A stretch of DNA of 40,953 nt from an uncultured Prevotella sp. (GTDB lineage Bacteria; Bacteroidota; Bacteroidia; Bacteroidales; Bacteroidaceae), in assembly GCA_900319715.1 (NCBI GenBank), contig ONPM01000044.1, positions 1 to 40,953 of the forward strand, written 5' to 3'. A model generated the notes under the pieces. It was not told the origin of the DNA. It saw nothing but the letters and a program-made list of their open reading frames with translations, and searched no databases. Made by a program: the position numbers and the translations under genes. Each line of letters opens with the position of its first letter. Position 1 is the stretch's first letter. Below, piece after piece: positions 2,641 through 38,834 of this stretch.

Positions 2641-2739
2641 GTTTACAGTTTACGGTTTACAGTTGACAGTTGATATGACTGGAGGCTGTATCCCCCGCAA
2701 AGGTAATCATCTGTAAACCGTAAACTGTAAACTGTAAAC
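2641..2739. repeat. Heptamer inverted-repeat element between sufC and sufD
   Basis: Left arm 2641-2675 is made of seven-base units (GTTTACA, GTTTACG, GTTTACA, GTTGACA, GTTGATA). Right arm 2705-2739 is AATCATC followed by TGTAAAC, CGTAAAC, TGTAAAC, TGTAAAC, the inverse complement of the left arm shifted by one unit. The core contains ACTGGAGGC next to the left arm and GCAAAGGTAATCATC at the right, both shared with the S23-gene element at 28.1-28.6 kb, so this looks like an internally deleted relative. It starts 3 nt after the sufC stop and ends 10 nt before the sufD ATG. Confidence 0.9.
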
Positions 2740-2749
2740 AGAAAGAAAA

Positions 2750-4156
2750 ATGAGCGAACAGCAATATATAGACCTCTATGAGCAAGCGCGGGAGTTGATA
2801 TGCTCTCATGCCCCAGAGGCGATGAATGCCGTTAGGGATCAGGCCTTCGAGGACTTCCGCAGGCAGGGCTTCCCGTCGAAGAAGGTGGAACGGTATAAAT
2901 ATACCGATATGCAGAAACTCTTCGCTCCTGACTACGGCGTGAACCTCAACCGCCTGCAGATACCCGCCGACCCCTATGAGGCTTTCCGCTGCGATGTGCC
3001 AAATCTGAGCACGAGCCTCTATTTCATGGTGAACGACTCGTTCTATCGTGGAGTGAGGAGTGAGGAGTATGGAGGGAGAATACCTAATACCACTCCAAAA
3101 CTGCCGGAGGGGGTAATCGTGGGATCTATGCAAGAACTATTCTCACTCCACACTCCACACTCCTCACTCCTCGAAAAATACTACGCCCGTCTGGCCAAGA
3201 CCAGCGACGATGCCGTCACAGCCCTGAACACAATGCTAGCCCAGGATGGCATGCTGATTTATGTGCCTAAGAATGTCAAGGTCGATCGTGCCATCCAGGT
3301 CATCAACATCCTGAAGGCTCTATCACCTCTCACCTCTCACCTCTCACCTCAAAATATCATGGTGAACCGCCGTGTGCTCATCATCCTCGAAGAGGGCGCA
3401 GAACTGAAGATGCTTTTCTGTGACCATACGGCCGACGACCGTAACTTCCTTGCTACGCAGGTCATTGAGGCTTTTGTGGGTGAGAACGCATCTCTCGACC
3501 TCTATTGTCTGGAGGAGACGCATTATAAGAATGTACGTGTAAGTAATGTCTATATCGACCAGCAGGCCAACAGCCGCGTGAACCACAATGTAATCACCCT
3601 GCACAACGGCATTACCCGTAATAAACTTGACCTGACTTTCTCTGGCGAGGGAGCCGAGTGCCAGTGCTTTGGCTGCGTGATTGCCGACAAACAACAGCAT
3701 GTGGATAATAATACGTTGATTACCCATCATGTGCCCCATTGCACCTCGAACGAACTGTATAAATATGTTCTCGATGATCAGGCCGTAGGGGCCTTCGCAG
3801 GTCGTGTGCTCGTGGAGCACGGTGCCCAGAAGACCTCTTCGCAGATGACGAACCAGAACCTGACGGCTACCAAAGAGGCCCGTATGTACACCCAGCCCAT
3901 GCTGGAGATCTACGCCGATGACGTGAAGTGCGCTCACGGTTCTACCGTTGGCCAACTCAACGATGCGGCCCTCTTCTATATGCGCCAGAGAGGCATCTCC
4001 CTCGACGAGGCCAAACTCTTGCTGCAAAATGCTTTCATCAACGAGGTCATCGACCATATGCAACTCGAACCACTCCGCGACCGTCTCCACTATCTGGTGG
4101 AGAAGCGCTTCCGTGGAGAGTTGAACAAATGTGCTGGTTGCAGGCTTTGTAAGTAA
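2750..4156 (+). CDS. sufD: Fe-S cluster assembly protein SufD, with in-frame heptamer arrays
   Basis: SufD is the SufB paralogue in the SufBC2D scaffold. The C-terminal beta-helix region is intact (for example CFGCVIADKQQHVDNNTLITH, EARMYTQPMLEIYADDVKCAHGSTVGQLNDAALFYMRQRGIS split over about residues 305-420), and the protein ends in a CAGCRLC cysteine motif. Length 468 is close to that of Bacteroidales homologues. Two loops hold tandem heptamers in frame: GAGTGAG-type units at 3051-3078 with inverse partners at 3143-3172, flanking the normal LPEGVIVGSMQEL stretch, and four perfect TCACCTC units at 3323-3350, read as LSPLTSHLSP. Both lie in loops before the conserved MVNRRVLIILEEG strand, so function is probably kept. 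Confidence 0.93.
   Translation: MSEQQYIDLYEQARELICSHAPEAMNAVRDQAFEDFRRQGFPSKKVERYKYTDMQKLFAPDYGVNLNRLQIPADPYEAFRCDVPNLSTSLYFMVNDSFYRGVRSEEYGGRIPNTTPKLPEGVIVGSMQELFSLHTPHSSLLEKYYARLAKTSDDAVTALNTMLAQDGMLIYVPKNVKVDRAIQVINILKALSPLTSHLSPQNIMVNRRVLIILEEGAELKMLFCDHTADDRNFLATQVIEAFVGENASLDLYCLEETHYKNVRVSNVYIDQQANSRVNHNVITLHNGITRNKLDLTFSGEGAECQCFGCVIADKQQHVDNNTLITHHVPHCTSNELYKYVLDDQAVGAFAGRVLVEHGAQKTSSQMTNQNLTATKEARMYTQPMLEIYADDVKCAHGSTVGQLNDAALFYMRQRGISLDEAKLLLQNAFINEVIDHMQLEPLRDRLHYLVEKRFRGELNKCAGCRLCK
3051..3172. repeat. Paired inverted heptamer arrays inside sufD
   Basis: Left array 3051-3078: GAGTGAG, GAGTGAG, GAGTATG, GAGGGAG. Right array 3143-3172 has ACTCC recurring exactly every 7 nt (3145, 3152, 3159, 3166) and is the inverse complement type. 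The 64 nt between the arrays encode ordinary SufD residues (KLPEGVIVGSMQEL). Confidence 0.85.
3323..3350 (+). repeat. TCACCTC x4 heptamer array inside sufD
   Basis: Four identical seven-base units, read in frame as LSPLTSHLSP. The same unit is found in sufS (5172-5199) and, on the coding strand, in the GH95 gene (11180-11207). Confidence 0.95.
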
Positions 4157-9849: not shown

Positions 9850-9957
9850 GTTTATAGTTTAAAGTTTATAGTTTATAGATGAATACTTCTATAGGCAGTA
9901 TAATCTGAATGGCTTGCCAGGTTATCAACTATAAACTATAAACTTTAAACTATAAAC
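9850..9957. repeat. GTTTATA-type heptamer inverted-repeat element
   Basis: Left arm GTTTATA, GTTTAAA, GTTTATA, GTTTATA, GATGAAT (9850-9884); right arm ends TATAAAC, TATAAAC, TTTAAAC, TATAAAC (9930-9957). The outer 28 nt are perfect inverse complements, including the odd GTTTAAA/TTTAAAC unit. The core reads ACTTCTATAGGCAG and then TGGCTTGCCAGGTTATC, shared with the copies at 15.3, 15.8 and 38.7 kb. Confidence 0.92.
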
Positions 9958-10008: not shown

Positions 10009-10701
10009 ATGAACGAGTTACCCCCCATCATACAAGTTGGCGACGTGCTGCTTTCATCTGAAATCCTGACGGAGAAGTTCTGTTGTGATCTCAGCGCTTG
10101 TAAAGGACAGTGTTGTGTTGAAGGCGATGCCGGAGCCCCTGTAACGCTCGAAGAAATCGCCGAGATTGAGGATTGTCTGGATGCCGTCTGGGGCGACCTC
10201 TCCGCTTCAGCCCAGGCCGTCATCGACAAACAAGGGGTGGCCTATACAGATAAGGAGGGAGATCTTGTAACGAGTATTGTCCGAGGCAAAGACTGCGTTT
10301 TCACTTACTACGATCGTTTACAGTTTTCTGTTGACAGTTTACAGATGAATACTGAAACTGCAAAGAAATCAACTATAAACAGTAAACCGTCAACTGTTAA
10401 CATAGAGAATTGCTGTCTCTGCGCCTTGGAGAAGGCTTGCAGAGCAGGCAAGACCCACTTCAGCAAGCCGATCAGTTGTGCGTTATACCCCATCCGTGAA
10501 AAACGATTAGGCAATGATCTCATAGGATTGAACTATAACCGTTGGGAGGTCTGCAAATCGGCTATTGCCAAGGGCATTGAGAAAGATATCCGACTCTATC
10601 AGTTCTTACGAGAGCCTCTGATCCGCCGCTTTGGTGAGGCTTGGTATCAAGAACTACAAGATGTCACCAGGTTTTTACTGGCATCGTCTGACCAGCCTTG
10701 A
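10009..10701 (+). CDS. DUF3109 family cysteine-cluster protein with in-frame inverted-repeat insertion
   Basis: A 230-residue cytosolic protein of the DUF3109 (YkgJ-like) type with cysteine groups that may bind a metal or Fe-S cluster: FCCDLSACKGQCCVEGDAGAP near the N-terminus, then CVFTYYD, NCCLCALEKACRAGKTHFSKPISC and NRWEVCKSA. Homologues as I remember them run almost directly from CVFTYYD to the next CxC. Here about 25-30 residues (about 103-131) intervene, and they are the translation of a complete degenerate heptamer inverted repeat (10316-10401). Convergent with GH95 and overlapping its 3' end by 38 bp. Biochemical function unknown. Confidence 0.85.
   Translation: MNELPPIIQVGDVLLSSEILTEKFCCDLSACKGQCCVEGDAGAPVTLEEIAEIEDCLDAVWGDLSASAQAVIDKQGVAYTDKEGDLVTSIVRGKDCVFTYYDRLQFSVDSLQMNTETAKKSTINSKPSTVNIENCCLCALEKACRAGKTHFSKPISCALYPIREKRLGNDLIGLNYNRWEVCKSAIAKGIEKDIRLYQFLREPLIRRFGEAWYQELQDVTRFLLASSDQP
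10316..10401. repeat. Heptamer inverted repeat translated within the DUF3109 gene
   Basis: Left units GTTTACA, GTTTTCT, GTTGACA, GTTTACA, GATGAAT. Right units TATAAAC, AGTAAAC, CGTCAAC, TGTTAAC, preceded by AATCAAC. The seven-base register is kept in both arms while the units are more diverged than in intergenic copies. Confidence 0.88.
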
Positions 10702-15285: not shown

Positions 15286-15400
15286 GTTTACAGTTTACGG
15301 TTTACAGTTTACAGTTGATTACCTGGCAAGCCATTCATTAGTTATAAGTTACTGTTTGGAAACTATAGAAGTAATCATCTGTAAACTGTAAACTGTAAAC
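15286..15400. repeat. GTTTACA-type heptamer inverted-repeat element (rbfA/permease gap)
   Basis: Left units GTTTACA, GTTTACG, GTTTACA, GTTTACA, GTTGATT (15286-15320) then ACCTGGCAAGCCATT; right end TATAGAAGTAATCATC and three TGTAAAC units to 15400. Read on the minus strand its core is GATGATTACTTCTATAG ... AATGGCTTGCCAGG, the same order as the copies at 9.85 and 38.7 kb, so this copy is inverted. It fills the gap from 11 nt after the rbfA stop to 15 nt before the permease ATG. Confidence 0.92.
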
Positions 15401-15759: not shown

Positions 15760-15870
15760 GTTTACTGTTTACAGTTTACGGTTTACAGTTGATTACTTCT
15801 ATAGTCTCCAGAGATATATCAAGGGCTTGCCAGGTATTCATCTATAAACTATAAACATTAAACTATAAAC
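15760..15870. repeat. Hybrid heptamer inverted-repeat element (methyltransferase/rbfA gap)
   Basis: Left arm is C-type (GTTTACT, GTTTACA, GTTTACG, GTTTACA, GTTGATT), right arm is T-type (TATAAAC, TATAAAC, ATTAAAC, TATAAAC), so the arms pair imperfectly. Core ACTTCTATAG ... GGGCTTGCCAGGTATTCATC matches the family. It begins 12 nt from the rbfA start and ends 3 nt from the methyltransferase stop. Confidence 0.9.
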
Positions 15871-26801: not shown

Positions 26802-28097
26802 ATGGAACAATTATTGCATTATGTGTGGAAGCACAAACTGTTCCCATTACGGGAACTGGAGACGAGCGATGGGCAGACCGTTGAGGTGATCGACCCTGGG
26901 TTGCACAACCACAATGCAGGGCCGGACTTCTTCAATGCGAAAGTGCGGATCGGACGGACACTGTGGGTGGGCAACGTGGAGATTCACGATAAGTCGTCGG
27001 ACTGGTATCTGCACGGCCACGACAAGGACCAGCGCTACGACAACGTGATCCTGCATGTGGCTGGGGTGCTCGACGCCGAGGTGATGAACACCAACGGGGA
27101 GTTCGTCAGGCAGATGCAACTCGACGTGCCGGACAACGTCAGGGAGCACTATGAGGAACTGCTGAAGACAGACAGTTATCCGCCCTGCTACAAGGTGATC
27201 CCTGATCTGACGCGGCTGATGGTACATGCCTGGATGGCAGCCTTGCAGACGGAGCGTCTGGAGCAGAAGACAGAGGCCATCCGACGGAGGGCAGAGCAGT
27301 GTGGTGGATCCTGGGAGGATGCCTACTTCGTGACCCTGGCCCGTAACTACGGCTTCGGCATCAACGGCGACGTGTTTGAGCAGTGGGCACAGAGCATCCC
27401 GCTCGATGCCGTCTCCCACCATCGTGACGACCTCTTCCAGATCGAGGCCATCTTCATGGGACAGGCTGGCCTGCTCGAACTGGAGGCGGTGCCGGAGTAT
27501 TATCAGAAGGAGGCGCTCAACGAGGGCTACTTTGCCAAACTGCGCAACGAGTACCTCTATCTGGCCCATAAGTTCTCGATGAGGCCGATCGACTTCCATC
27601 TCTGGCGCTTCCTCAGACTGCGACCTCAGAACTTCCCCCATATCCGCATCTCACAACTGGCGAACCTCTACTATCAGCAGAAGGCCGGACTGAGCCAGTT
27701 GGTGGAGTGCGAGACCATCGAGCAGTTGAAGACCCTCTTCTCGTCGCACGTCACACCCTATTGGGAGACACACTATACCTTCGGCTCCACCAGTTCGAAG
27801 ACTGAGAAGCATCTGACCTACGGCTCGCTGAACCTGCTGATGATCAACACCGCCATCCCGATGCTCTTCGCCTACGGACGGCATCGTTCGAAGGAGGTGC
27901 TCTGCGACCGTGCCTTCGACTTCCTGGAACAACTGAAGGCCGAGAACAATCACATCATCCGCATGTGGCAGCAAGTAGGCCTCCCCGTCCAGACGGCTGG
28001 CGACTCGCAGGCCCTCATCCAACTGAAGAAGGAGTATTGTGACAAGAAAGACTGCCTCCGCTGTCGCTTCGGATACGAGTATTTGAAGCGGAAGTAG
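26802..28097 (+). CDS. DUF2851 family protein
   Basis: A 431-residue protein of unknown function, conserved in Bacteroidota. Recognised by EVIDPGLHNHNAGPDFFNAKVRIG and WVGNVEIHDKSSDWYLHGHDKD near the N-terminus and the C-terminal cysteine cluster CDKKDCLRCRFGYEYL. No signal peptide or membrane segment is seen, so it is probably cytosolic. The His/Asp/Glu-rich N-terminal part resembles a nuclease-like active site, but this is only an impression. Confidence 0.85.
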   Translation: MEQLLHYVWKHKLFPLRELETSDGQTVEVIDPGLHNHNAGPDFFNAKVRIGRTLWVGNVEIHDKSSDWYLHGHDKDQRYDNVILHVAGVLDAEVMNTNGEFVRQMQLDVPDNVREHYEELLKTDSYPPCYKVIPDLTRLMVHAWMAALQTERLEQKTEAIRRRAEQCGGSWEDAYFVTLARNYGFGINGDVFEQWAQSIPLDAVSHHRDDLFQIEAIFMGQAGLLELEAVPEYYQKEALNEGYFAKLRNEYLYLAHKFSMRPIDFHLWRFLRLRPQNFPHIRISQLANLYYQQKAGLSQLVECETIEQLKTLFSSHVTPYWETHYTFGSTSSKTEKHLTYGSLNLLMINTAIPMLFAYGRHRSKEVLCDRAFDFLEQLKAENNHIIRMWQQVGLPVQTAGDSQALIQLKKEYCDKKDCLRCRFGYEYLKRK

Positions 28098-28144
28098 GGT
28101 TTTATAGTTTACAGTTTACGGTTTACAGTTTACAGATGATTACA

Positions 28145-28216
28145 CTGGAGGCCGATAAATGGTAGAAGATAAAGAATACGCTGGAGGCCGATAAATGGTA
28201 GAAAATAAAGAATTGA
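28145..28216 (+). repeat. Two 36-bp direct repeats in front of the S23 gene
   Basis: Each begins CTGGAGGCCGATAAATGG and continues with GTAGAA-G/A-ATAAAG. The copies differ only in a few bases near their ends. ACTGGAGGC is also found in the sufC-sufD element. Confidence 0.9.
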
Positions 28217-28235
28217 AAGTAAAGATAAAGTTGTT

Positions 28236-28622
28236 ATGATAGAGTTTGATTTTTCATATCGTAAATTGAATGTTTATCAGTTATCAAAGAAGTTGGTGAC
28301 TGATATCTATAAATTGATTGGGACTTTTCCCAATACGGAGACCTATGCATTGGGTGACCAATTGCGCAGAGCCGTGATCTCTATTCCCTCTAATATTGCA
28401 GAAGGCACAGCCAAAGCCTCGCCGAAAGAACAGTTCCATTTTCTAGAAATTGCCTATGGTTCATTGATGGAAATCATGTGCCAACTGGAAATCTCTTATG
28501 ATTTAGGGTATATCGACCAAGTCCAGCTTCGTCAGTCAGAAGAGGAAATCGTGATGATATATAAGATGTTGTCTTCTATGCAATCGACACTAAAATCCCG
28601 CATGCAAGGTAATCATCTGTAA
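28236..28622 (+). CDS. Four-helix-bundle protein, S23/IVS-encoded type
   Basis: A 128-residue helical protein of the S23 family (23S rRNA intervening-sequence protein; structurally related to Avd of diversity-generating retroelements). The family signature DQLRRAVISIPSNIAEGTAKASPKE and FHFLEIAYGSLMEI is complete and followed by YDLGYID. Family proteins are small, basic or neutral bundles that oligomerise; their cellular role is not established. The C-terminus QGNHL and the stop codon are encoded by the right inverted repeat, so gene and repeat form one unit. Lower-GC codon use (many A/T third positions) differs from neighbouring genes, consistent with transfer. Confidence 0.92.
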   Translation: MIEFDFSYRKLNVYQLSKKLVTDIYKLIGTFPNTETYALGDQLRRAVISIPSNIAEGTAKASPKEQFHFLEIAYGSLMEIMCQLEISYDLGYIDQVQLRQSEEEIVMIYKMLSSMQSTLKSRMQGNHL

Positions 28623-28653
28623 ACTGTAAACCGTAAACTGTAAACAAAAAAGT

Positions 28654-29778
28654 ATGGACCAGGAAATATTCTACGCGATGGCGCTGACGCGCCTGACGAA
28701 CTTCAACTACCAGCAGGCGCTGGAACTGTATAAGGCAGTAGGGAGTGCGCAAATGTTGTTTGAGCACAGGAATGAGATAGGCGATATCATCAAGGACGCC
28801 TCGCCGCGACTGATGGAAGCGCTGAAGGACTGGGACGAGGCGATGAGAAGGGCAGAGGCAGAACTCCGATTTATGGAGGAGCATCGTATCCGGGCCCTCA
28901 CGCTGAATGATGATGACTATCCTCAGCGGCTCACAGAGTGCCCCGATGCACCTATTATAATATATTATACTGGCAATGCAGACCTGAATCAGGAAAAGAT
29001 CGTCAGTATTGTGGGAACACGTCATGCTACGCCATACGGTCAGGATCTCATACACCGTTTTGTGAGTGAGTTGCGAGGGCTTTGTCCGCAAGTGCTGATT
29101 GTCAGCGGTCTGGCCTATGGTGTCGATATCTGTGCCCATCGGGAGGCGCTGGCCAATGGCTATCCTACGGTGGGGGTCTTGGCTCACGGACTGGATCAGA
29201 TCTATCCCTATCGCCATCGTGAGACTGCGGCACAGATGCTGAACCACGGTGGACTGCTGACGGAGTTCATGAGCCAGACGAATGCCGACAAACCCAACTT
29301 CGTGCGCCGCAACCGTATCGTGGCAGGTATGGCGGATGCCGTGATTCTCGTGGAGAGTGCGGCTAAGGGTGGAGGCCTCATCACCGCAGAGATTGCTCAG
29401 AGTTATGCCCGCAGCGTCTTTGCATTCCCAGGCAATGTGGGACAGCCCTATTCCGAGGGTTGCAACAATCTGATTCGCGATAACGGGGCAGGACTCATCT
29501 CCAATGCCCAAGACTTCGTGAAGGCGATGGGGTGGTGGGAAGAGACCCATCGGCAGCAGGCTTTTGCCGATGGAATCGAGCGAAATCTCTTTCCTGACCT
29601 TACGGCAGAGGAGCAACAGGTGGTCAGTCTGCTCCAACAGACCAACGACCTCCAACTCAACATCATCACCGTCAAGACCGGCATCCCCATCGGCCGTCTC
29701 ACGGCCCTGCTCTTCCAGTTAGAGATGAAGGGTATGGTGAAGCCATTGGCAGGGGGAATGTATCATCTGTTGTTGTAA
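28654..29778 (+). CDS. dprA: DNA-processing protein DprA
   Basis: Binds incoming single-stranded DNA and loads RecA during transformation. The 374 residues contain an N-terminal SAM-like region, the Rossmann-type core (VSIVGTRHATPYGQ, SGLAYGVDICAHREAL, FVRRNRIVAGMADAVILVESAAKGGGLITAE split over about 125-250) and a C-terminal winged-helix domain. All hallmarks are intact. Its ribosome site region (aaaaaagt) directly abuts the S23 element. Confidence 0.95.
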   Translation: MDQEIFYAMALTRLTNFNYQQALELYKAVGSAQMLFEHRNEIGDIIKDASPRLMEALKDWDEAMRRAEAELRFMEEHRIRALTLNDDDYPQRLTECPDAPIIIYYTGNADLNQEKIVSIVGTRHATPYGQDLIHRFVSELRGLCPQVLIVSGLAYGVDICAHREALANGYPTVGVLAHGLDQIYPYRHRETAAQMLNHGGLLTEFMSQTNADKPNFVRRNRIVAGMADAVILVESAAKGGGLITAEIAQSYARSVFAFPGNVGQPYSEGCNNLIRDNGAGLISNAQDFVKAMGWWEETHRQQAFADGIERNLFPDLTAEEQQVVSLLQQTNDLQLNIITVKTGIPIGRLTALLFQLEMKGMVKPLAGGMYHLLL

Positions 29779-30130
29779 TCGATGCTTTGCACGACAGTCA
29801 TCGATGCCTTGCAAAGGAGTAAGGGATGCCTTCTATAGGGGTATAGGAGGCATCCCTTACTGTCGTACTAAGCATCCCTTACACTCATGCAAGGTATCGG
29901 AACGACAGAAACCAGGCAGGCTCCCCCCAGCCACTAAAAGCCTTGATTTTTTTGAAGACTTCTCACGATTTTCGGCCCATCCCTCACATAATCTTCTGAA
30001 AAGCCTTTGTACAAAGGGGAAAACGAATGTGAGGGATGTTTTTTATCCCTCACAAATCCCTCACAAATCCCTCACATCATCCCTCACATCATGCTTATGC
30101 AGCCCGAAGCGGATACGCTTACGAAAGACA
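29779..30130. repeat. Intergenic region of nested palindromes and GTGAGGGATG-type repeats
   Basis: No gene is supported here. 29818-29861 is a long hairpin (AGTAAGGGATGCC stem with one mismatch over 20 bp, loop GGGG), nested in ACGACAGT/ACTGTCGT (29791/29859) and CGATGCCTTGCA/TGCAAGGTATCG (29802/29888). 29978-30038 is a second hairpin, CATCCCTCACAT ... ATGTGAGGGATG around the perfect 14-bp palindrome CCTTTGTACAAAGG (30004-30017). 30044-30094 holds five ATCCCTCACA tandem copies with irregular spacing. Confidence 0.75.
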
Positions 30131-38712: not shown

Positions 38713-38826
38713 GTTTATAGTTTAAAGTTTATAGTTTATAGATGATATGTTTTATAGGCAGAAAAGATACAGGCAGGATGGCTTGCAAGGTAATCATCTA
38801 TAAACTATAAACTTTAAACTATAAAC
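38713..38826. repeat. GTTTATA-type heptamer inverted-repeat element (lepB/wbqC gap)
   Basis: Left units GTTTATA, GTTTAAA, GTTTATA, GTTTATA, GATGATA; right arm AATCATC, TATAAAC, TATAAAC, TTTAAAC, TATAAAC. Core TTTTATAGGCAG ... ATGGCTTGCAAGGTAATC. Ends 8 nt before the WbqC ATG. Confidence 0.93.
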
Positions 38827-38834
38827 AAAAAAAT

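Follow-up and report, generated by a model that had tools for sequence, protein, structure and literature searches.

S23 four-helix-bundle genes between inverted heptamer arrays: a probable family of mobile elements with short noncoding derivatives

A locus of an uncultured Prevotella sp. raises the question of why a gene for an S23-type four-helix-bundle protein, of the kind known from intervening sequences (IVSs) of 23S rRNA, would lie between protein genes inside a perfect inverted repeat. The locus belongs to a stretch of 40,953 nucleotides (contig ONPM01000044.1, assembly GCA_900319715.1), here called the window, in which an initial annotation had described an S23 open reading frame (ORF) enclosed by perfect 37-nt heptamer repeats, with the stop codon and last residues forming part of the right repeat. 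Both points proved exact. The inverted arms (locus L010) are exact reverse complements, with a score of 37 over 37 nt, and the final codons of the ORF, GGT AAT CAT CTG TAA, fall within the right arm, the GGT overlapping the arm edge (Table 1). The left arm reads GTTTACAGTTTACGGTTTACAGTTTACAGATGATTAC, and the repeat search stretches the arm pairing to 52 nt at 88%.

The enclosed ORF matches S23-type families only, namely, Pfam PF05635 (E = 1.4e-34) and NCBIfam TIGR02436, "four helix bundle protein" (1.6e-34), and no recognized catalytic domain was found with either collection. The NCBIfam model of Avd gives a weak match (E = 2.9e-5), under the model cutoff; a sequence search of the PDB at E up to 0.1 matched XCC0516 alone (2GSC, five chains); and a tblastn search of 50,697 phage records (E up to 0.01) produced no match. 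The cassette as a whole folds better than its shuffles (z -7.7). It is flanked by a DUF2851 gene (26802-28097) and dprA (28654-29778), and no Rfam family reached the gathering score anywhere in the window; given this location and the lack of an Rfam match at that score, identity with a 23S rRNA IVS was rejected. Just past dprA (29780-29899), there is a separate inverted repeat whose arms span 58 nt and are 72% complementary; 22-nt direct repeats accompany it.

Table 1. Coordinates of the S23 cassette and of the small elements within the window
Feature	Position	Strand	Description
Left inverted arm	28107..28143	+	Four tandem heptamers GTTTAC[AG], then GATGATTAC on the inner side
Leader, left arm to S23 start	28138..28209	+	Two 36-nt direct repeats, 92% alike
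S23 / 23S_rRNA_IVP four-helix-bundle gene	28236..28622	+	128 aa
Right inverted arm	28609..28645	-	Contains the S23 stop codon
Element A	2641..2739		GTTTAYR arms, noncoding; orthologous site empty in 5/5 relatives
Element F	3046..3174		Word GGAGTGA; within ORF 2750-4156
Element B	9850..9957		Noncoding; absent in 4 comparable of 5 close relatives
Element C	10316..10400		Degenerate small copy; absent in 5/5 relatives
Element D	15286..15400		Noncoding; absent in 5/5 relatives
Element E	15767..15870		Noncoding; absent in 5/5 relatives
Element H	38713..38827		Small noncoding copy; orthologous site not located in the relatives' loci compared

The ends of the cassette recur in the host genome. When up to 3 mismatches are allowed, the 16-mer inner word GTTTACAGATGATTAC is matched 12 times in the window (0.34 expected), a count of 12 being reached by none of 100 shuffles. 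Across the host genome, the word occurs 78 times without mismatch and its reversed control 0 times. In the window and 40 further stretches of the host genome (G000), 50 small inverted elements of the GTTTAYR type accompany a single S23 cassette. These elements (median, 112 bp) were picked by a script on the basis of arm pairing and a loose word filter, and the 40 stretches were picked for holding the word, so that their array density was not used as evidence. The initial annotation had proposed that smaller elements share both the ends and the core words of the cassette. The ends are indeed shared, but the core words only in part: allowing 1 mismatch, CTGGAGGC occurs in 11 and TGCAAGGTAAT in 13 of the 50 small elements and both occur in the cassette, whereas CTGGCAAGCCA (20 of 50) and CTTCTATAG (26 of 50) are absent from it. 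The number of array copies differs between elements. All but four of the small elements (46/50) are not wholly inside an ORF of at least 150 aa, and for three of those in the window, folding is much stronger than in shuffles (z -7.3, -10.5, and -11.6). The own arm of an element is more similar than other arms in 40 of the 50, a figure that is biased because the elements were selected by arm pairing.

The cassette and small elements were compared with orthologous sites in related genomes. At the five closest dprA loci (protein 79 to 86% identical), the gap between the DUF2851 gene and dprA is 12 to 40 bp and contains no S23 gene, compared with 560 bp in the host. The comparison of orthologous sites that had been proposed for this locus thus found the cassette junction free of S23 in all five relatives, and five of the small elements were missing from every comparable site (5/5 for A, C, D, and E; 4/4 for B). 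Such absence from all compared relatives favors gain in the host; a single site alone cannot separate gain from loss. Several sites of elements A to E hold other words in other species, indicating that the same sites were struck repeatedly by unrelated words. Approximately the place of element F, within its ORF, is occupied by three different heptamer arrays in G018, G025, and G013 and by none in G031 and G020. The flanks of the cassette and of the elements were too diverged or too AT-rich for a comparison of target-site duplications. Two side observations concern these relatives: G013 has a second dprA match, and the site of element C in G031 (L291, L297) holds an almost perfect long hairpin without heptamers.

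Cassettes at other loci can likewise be set against sites that lack them. On a Nostoc edaphicum plasmid, an S23 cassette separates a pair of ribonucleotide reductase genes that stand next to each other in Calothrix sp. NIES-4105 (pieces 85.7% identical). In Anabaena sp. 90, an S23 insert separates cas6 from cas4; a Dolichospermum plasmid (pieces 99.3% identical) lacks this insert and carries at the cas6-cas4 junction a different inverted-repeat insert with GTAGGTTGGGTTGA ends (L433, about 1920-2155); these junctions were read from the sequences together with BLAST pieces. The right heptamer array of L123 (2402-2480) seemingly lies inside the start of cas4, and the insertion therefore appears to have replaced the first Cas4 residues relative to L433.

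The association between S23 genes and inverted arms extends far beyond this locus. Each S23 gene was oriented, its upstream flank was aligned to the reversed downstream flank, and a score of at least 16 was taken as the threshold for arms. In Bacteroidales (the host and its relatives of the order; 79 genes, from which one duplicate [L049] and one weak match [E = 7.6e-8] were removed), 53 of 77 S23 genes reach this score and 24 fall below it, compared with 0.7% of 1,540 mismatched flank pairs. Among seven sampled S23-bearing genomes, 26 of 37 S23 genes are armed; in these genomes, arms were found for 5 of 1,000 random segments and for 4 of 554 ORFs other than S23. S23 matches of E above 1e-10 were excluded from this control as well as from the protein-word correlation described below. 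The best period of the 65 arms scoring at least 16 is 7 in 39 cases and 8 in 17, and the left arms are poor in C (on average 6.7% C and 27.6% G; there is more G than C in 56 and less in 6). The host genome itself has five S23 genes, and the GTTTACA word is found at the window S23 alone; three of the others have arms made of different words (L009, L012, and L013), and the remaining one (L011) scores 12.

The same arrangement was found in many phyla. A scan with one genome per species gave 585 confirmed stretches, and among the best 80 of these (named loci), 45 score at least 16 and 35 fall below, compared with 0.25% of 1,600 mismatched pairs; one mismatched control pair reached 62, and five loci that pass the threshold (L366, L390, L335, L339, and L375) are not clearly tandem. 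Within this best 80 of 585, a period of 7 fits best in 38 of the 45 armed loci, which by record title represent at least 10 phyla, including Pseudomonadota, Planctomycetota, Acidobacteriota, Chloroflexota, and Bacteroidota as well as Cyanobacteriota, Gemmatimonadota, Fibrobacterota, Kiritimatiellota, and Clostridia; the lone archaeal locus has a score of 8, with a one-sided array and no inverted arms. On cyanobacterial plasmids, arms scoring at least 16 surround 10 of 14 S23 loci (14 of 31 plasmid records, with no mismatched-pair control). The words of the arms vary from locus to locus. At two planctomycete loci, L334 and L359, the heptamer arrays next to the S23 genes are very long, exceeding 130 and 240 nt. 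None of the words that we take to be signatures of 23S rRNA was present at the 80 named loci (best 80 of 585). The cassette of the window is correctly described as lying between protein genes, but it is not the exception that the initial annotation had made of it, since armed S23 genes outside rRNA are the commoner state in the sets examined. Neither S23 genes lacking the repeats in all relatives nor repeats unassociated with S23 genes, the two outcomes named beforehand as contrary to the proposal, were seen; the association exceeds chance by far in all three of the controlled sets (53/77, 26/37, and 45/80 from the best 80 of 585).

Dispersed arrays also tend to be denser in genomes that carry S23 genes. 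Sampled away from the listed S23 matches, the seven S23-bearing genomes contain 127 arrays of period 7 or 8 per 800 kb, compared with a density of 6 per 762 kb in six genomes that gave no PF05635 match (Mann-Whitney p = 0.004; Spearman, 0.70), and Markov-resampled sequence contains 0. In this test, three of the six S23-free genomes come from other families of the order, G050 is represented by 42 kb, and G018 was left out. Exceptions exist: G001, which has 8 S23 matches, has a density of 5.0 per 100 kb, estimated from 40 kb, and the same density was obtained for the S23-free genome G003. The arrays are in part matched to the cassettes of their own genome, with 41 of the 127 exceeding 95% of random sets in similarity to the S23 arms of that genome (expectation, about 6; L257, which is the gene of L096, was removed from this test); the other 86 are unpaired, the list of cassettes being incomplete, and in G004, pairing is 1/15 with an own mean below the random mean.

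The words are mostly confined to genomes whose S23 genes carry them. The window 16-mer is present in 3 of 59 relatives. One of these, G018, has ten exact copies (L138, L140-L147, and L149) and no PF05635 match; these orphans may be noncoding copies that outlived the gene; alternatively, an S23 gene may be present in a part of G018 missing from the sequence, or the copies may have a different mover. Further words were taken from 30 inspected loci that partly overlap the 80 named ones. The pattern (GGGANTC)2 has 268 matches in Xanthomonas codiaei and 131 in Phormidium (overlapping matches rather than arrays), where S23 genes have GGGAATC/GGGATTC arms (L417) and GGGAGTC arms, respectively; 85 in Pseudoxanthomonas, where the S23 arms detected belong to a similar but distinct type, GGGACC; and 1 in G000. 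Ten other genomes have none. A word from Flavobacterium pectinovorum is matched 11 times in the genome of that species, at about nine places including the cassette, twice in a congener, and not at all in 12 others. For a Thiohalocapsa word, matches were confined to its own genome, with just two locations other than the cassette. The reversed control of GGGANTCGGGANTC gave 143 matches in the Thiohalocapsa genome G087 and 1 in G086; perhaps G087 has a heptamer family of its own. Similarity between S23 proteins correlates with similarity between their words (Mantel rho, 0.149; p = 0.002), arms being alike mainly above 60 to 70% protein identity; this correlation is weak, and linked inheritance alone could produce it, so coevolution of protein and word was not accepted.

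These observations are probably best explained by a family of mobile elements in which the S23 gene marks the coding member and the short derivatives are noncoding. A dispersed family with a coding member, as initially suggested, is supported by the 78 end words, the empty orthologous sites, and the association of S23 with arms. The further suggestion that the coding member might be autonomous is not supported, given an S23 protein without a recognized catalytic domain and the 10 word copies in G018 with no detected S23 gene. The main competitor, which we regard as unlikely, holds that the arrays are RNA hairpins useful to the host as processing, termination, or translation signals, that S23 is a coevolving host regulator that binds the repeats, and that recombination, rather than a function encoded by the element, spreads them. 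The position of most small elements relative to long ORFs and their strong folding agree with it, and in its accessible part, MacGregor 2015 (PMC4679880) suggests a posttranscriptional role for TAACTGA arrays. However, the fast, species-specific turnover, the absence of copies from orthologous sites, the insertion of element F within an ORF, the antisense orientation of the S23 gene between the two ribonucleotide reductase genes, and the packaging of S23 copies each in its own arms all speak against this explanation. It is extremely improbable that the arrays arose by replication slippage or assembly and that S23 genes are merely tolerant of them: array copy number varies among elements, as slippage would have it, but the two arms are inverted and mirror each other's variants, arms are almost absent from random segments and from the other ORFs of the sampled S23-bearing genomes (frequencies given above), resampled sequence yields no arrays, and plasmid records labeled complete show the same arms.

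Two other explanations would supply an enzyme. Short intergenic inverted pairs look like REPINs, and a Y1 transposase of the RAYT type could mobilize them with S23 as a passenger; Y1_Tnp is indeed found in G001, G004, G009, G028, and G059, all S23 bearing. Nevertheless, PF01797 is unmatched in the array-rich genomes G000 (89% complete), G008, and G019, and the arms enclose S23, not Y1, so this route was rejected and is given hardly any credence. Alternatively, S23, as a relative of Avd, might bring a hairpin RNA to a reverse transcriptase, in line with the weak Avd match of the window protein and with a group II intron reverse transcriptase near S23 in L134. This too is very improbable: L134 is without such arms (score 7), and although PF00078 (RVT_1) is present in G001, G009, and G059, it is unmatched in the array-rich genomes G000, G004, G008, G019, and G028, on which basis copying driven by a reverse transcriptase was rejected. 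Subject to the completeness of the genomes, the lack of matches in array-rich genomes disfavors both enzymes as partners.

The preferred reading, a mobile family with S23 as its coding member, can be worked out as follows. In the element, one S23 gene would be flanked on each side by an array of a 7- or 8-mer specific to that element, the two arrays being inverted relative to each other, and many short noncoding derivatives would retain the arms and scraps of the interior. The word would be recognized by the S23 oligomer of the same element, the likely target being an RNA or single-stranded DNA hairpin of the arms; that the arms take a hairpin form is likely in view of the mirrored variants in both arms and the published 23S rRNA cases. 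By recognizing the word, the protein might promote copying both of the element and, acting in trans, of the short derivatives, with insertion, mostly intergenic, relying on host enzymes or an unrecognized partner. Since the words change fast, each family would be nearly species specific. The S23-containing IVSs of 23S rRNA could then be insertions of the same kind, which we propose are tolerated there because the hairpin is cut from the transcript.

A broader proposal, which the evidence places about evenly between acceptance and doubt, is that S23/IVP genes constitute a wide bacterial class of mobile elements without a recognized transposase, each with an oligomeric four-helix bundle matched to its own 7- to 8-nt word; that this class is a source of much of the heptamer load of genomes (cyanobacterial repeats, GGGAATC of Xanthomonas, and possibly TAACTGA); and that the 23S rRNA IVS is one special landing site. 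If true, a single cause would account for the role of S23, its presence far from rRNA and in cas and other operons, and the origin of heptamer arrays; a class of mobile elements without a known recombinase would be added; and the protein-word pairs, differing by genome, would offer a natural test of nucleic acid recognition. In a literature search with most subscription journals and all preprints outside its coverage, no paper was found that links S23 to heptamer arrays.

Among known systems, REPINs are short inverted pairs scattered through intergenic DNA, and a RAYT is their coding partner. The host shares with them the dispersed inverted pairs (the 50 small elements) but differs in having 0 Y1 matches (G000, 89% complete), an S23 four-helix bundle without a known catalytic site, and heptamer-array ends. 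As in insertion sequences and their MITEs, terminal inverted repeats are common to long and short copies, but no transposase with a catalytic domain was matched in the coding copy. Diversity-generating retroelements offer Avd, which has a related four-helix-bundle fold and to which PF05635 is related according to the available part of PMC10053308; they require a reverse transcriptase, for which the host has 0 PF00078 matches in G000. A further likeness is to the 23S rRNA IVS, e.g., of Coxiella (PMC4990558), where, as far as the accessible text goes, an S23 ORF lies between complementary ends forming a long stem and mobility has been proposed, cited as a hypothesis by Warrier 2016 (same source). 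The window likewise has an S23/IVP-type ORF (PF05635) and stem-forming ends (37 bp; z -7.7), but it differs in its location outside rRNA, its tandem-heptamer arms, its many dispersed short copies, and words that differ between elements.

Heptamer repeats (STRR) in cyanobacteria are described in the older literature. Rehm 2015 (PMC4692102) describes dispersed heptamer arrays, GGGAATC in Xanthomonas and GGGGA[CT]T in Nostoc, with many convergent pairs, and MacGregor 2015 reports TAACTGA arrays in Beggiatoaceae, cyanobacteria, and Bacteroidetes that are intergenic and often just upstream of start codons. In the accessible portions of both, the arrays are described without a mobile-element cause, and that of PMC4692102 reports no association with mobile elements and does not mention S23. 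The TAACTGA arrays of PMC4679880 are mostly direct, whereas S23 arms are inverted. In the part of PMC3936711 that was available, S23 genes flanked by cmr2 and cmr3 or located near cas4 and cas6 are called CRISPR associated, with 18 counted in cas loci; the arms at L123 and L126, and more weakly at L132 (score 14), suggest that these genes are element insertions instead. The host shares with Xanthomonas and Nostoc its many intergenic 7-mer arrays, partly in inverted pairs, and in Xanthomonas codiaei, the GGGAATC/GGGATTC words form the very arms of an S23 gene.
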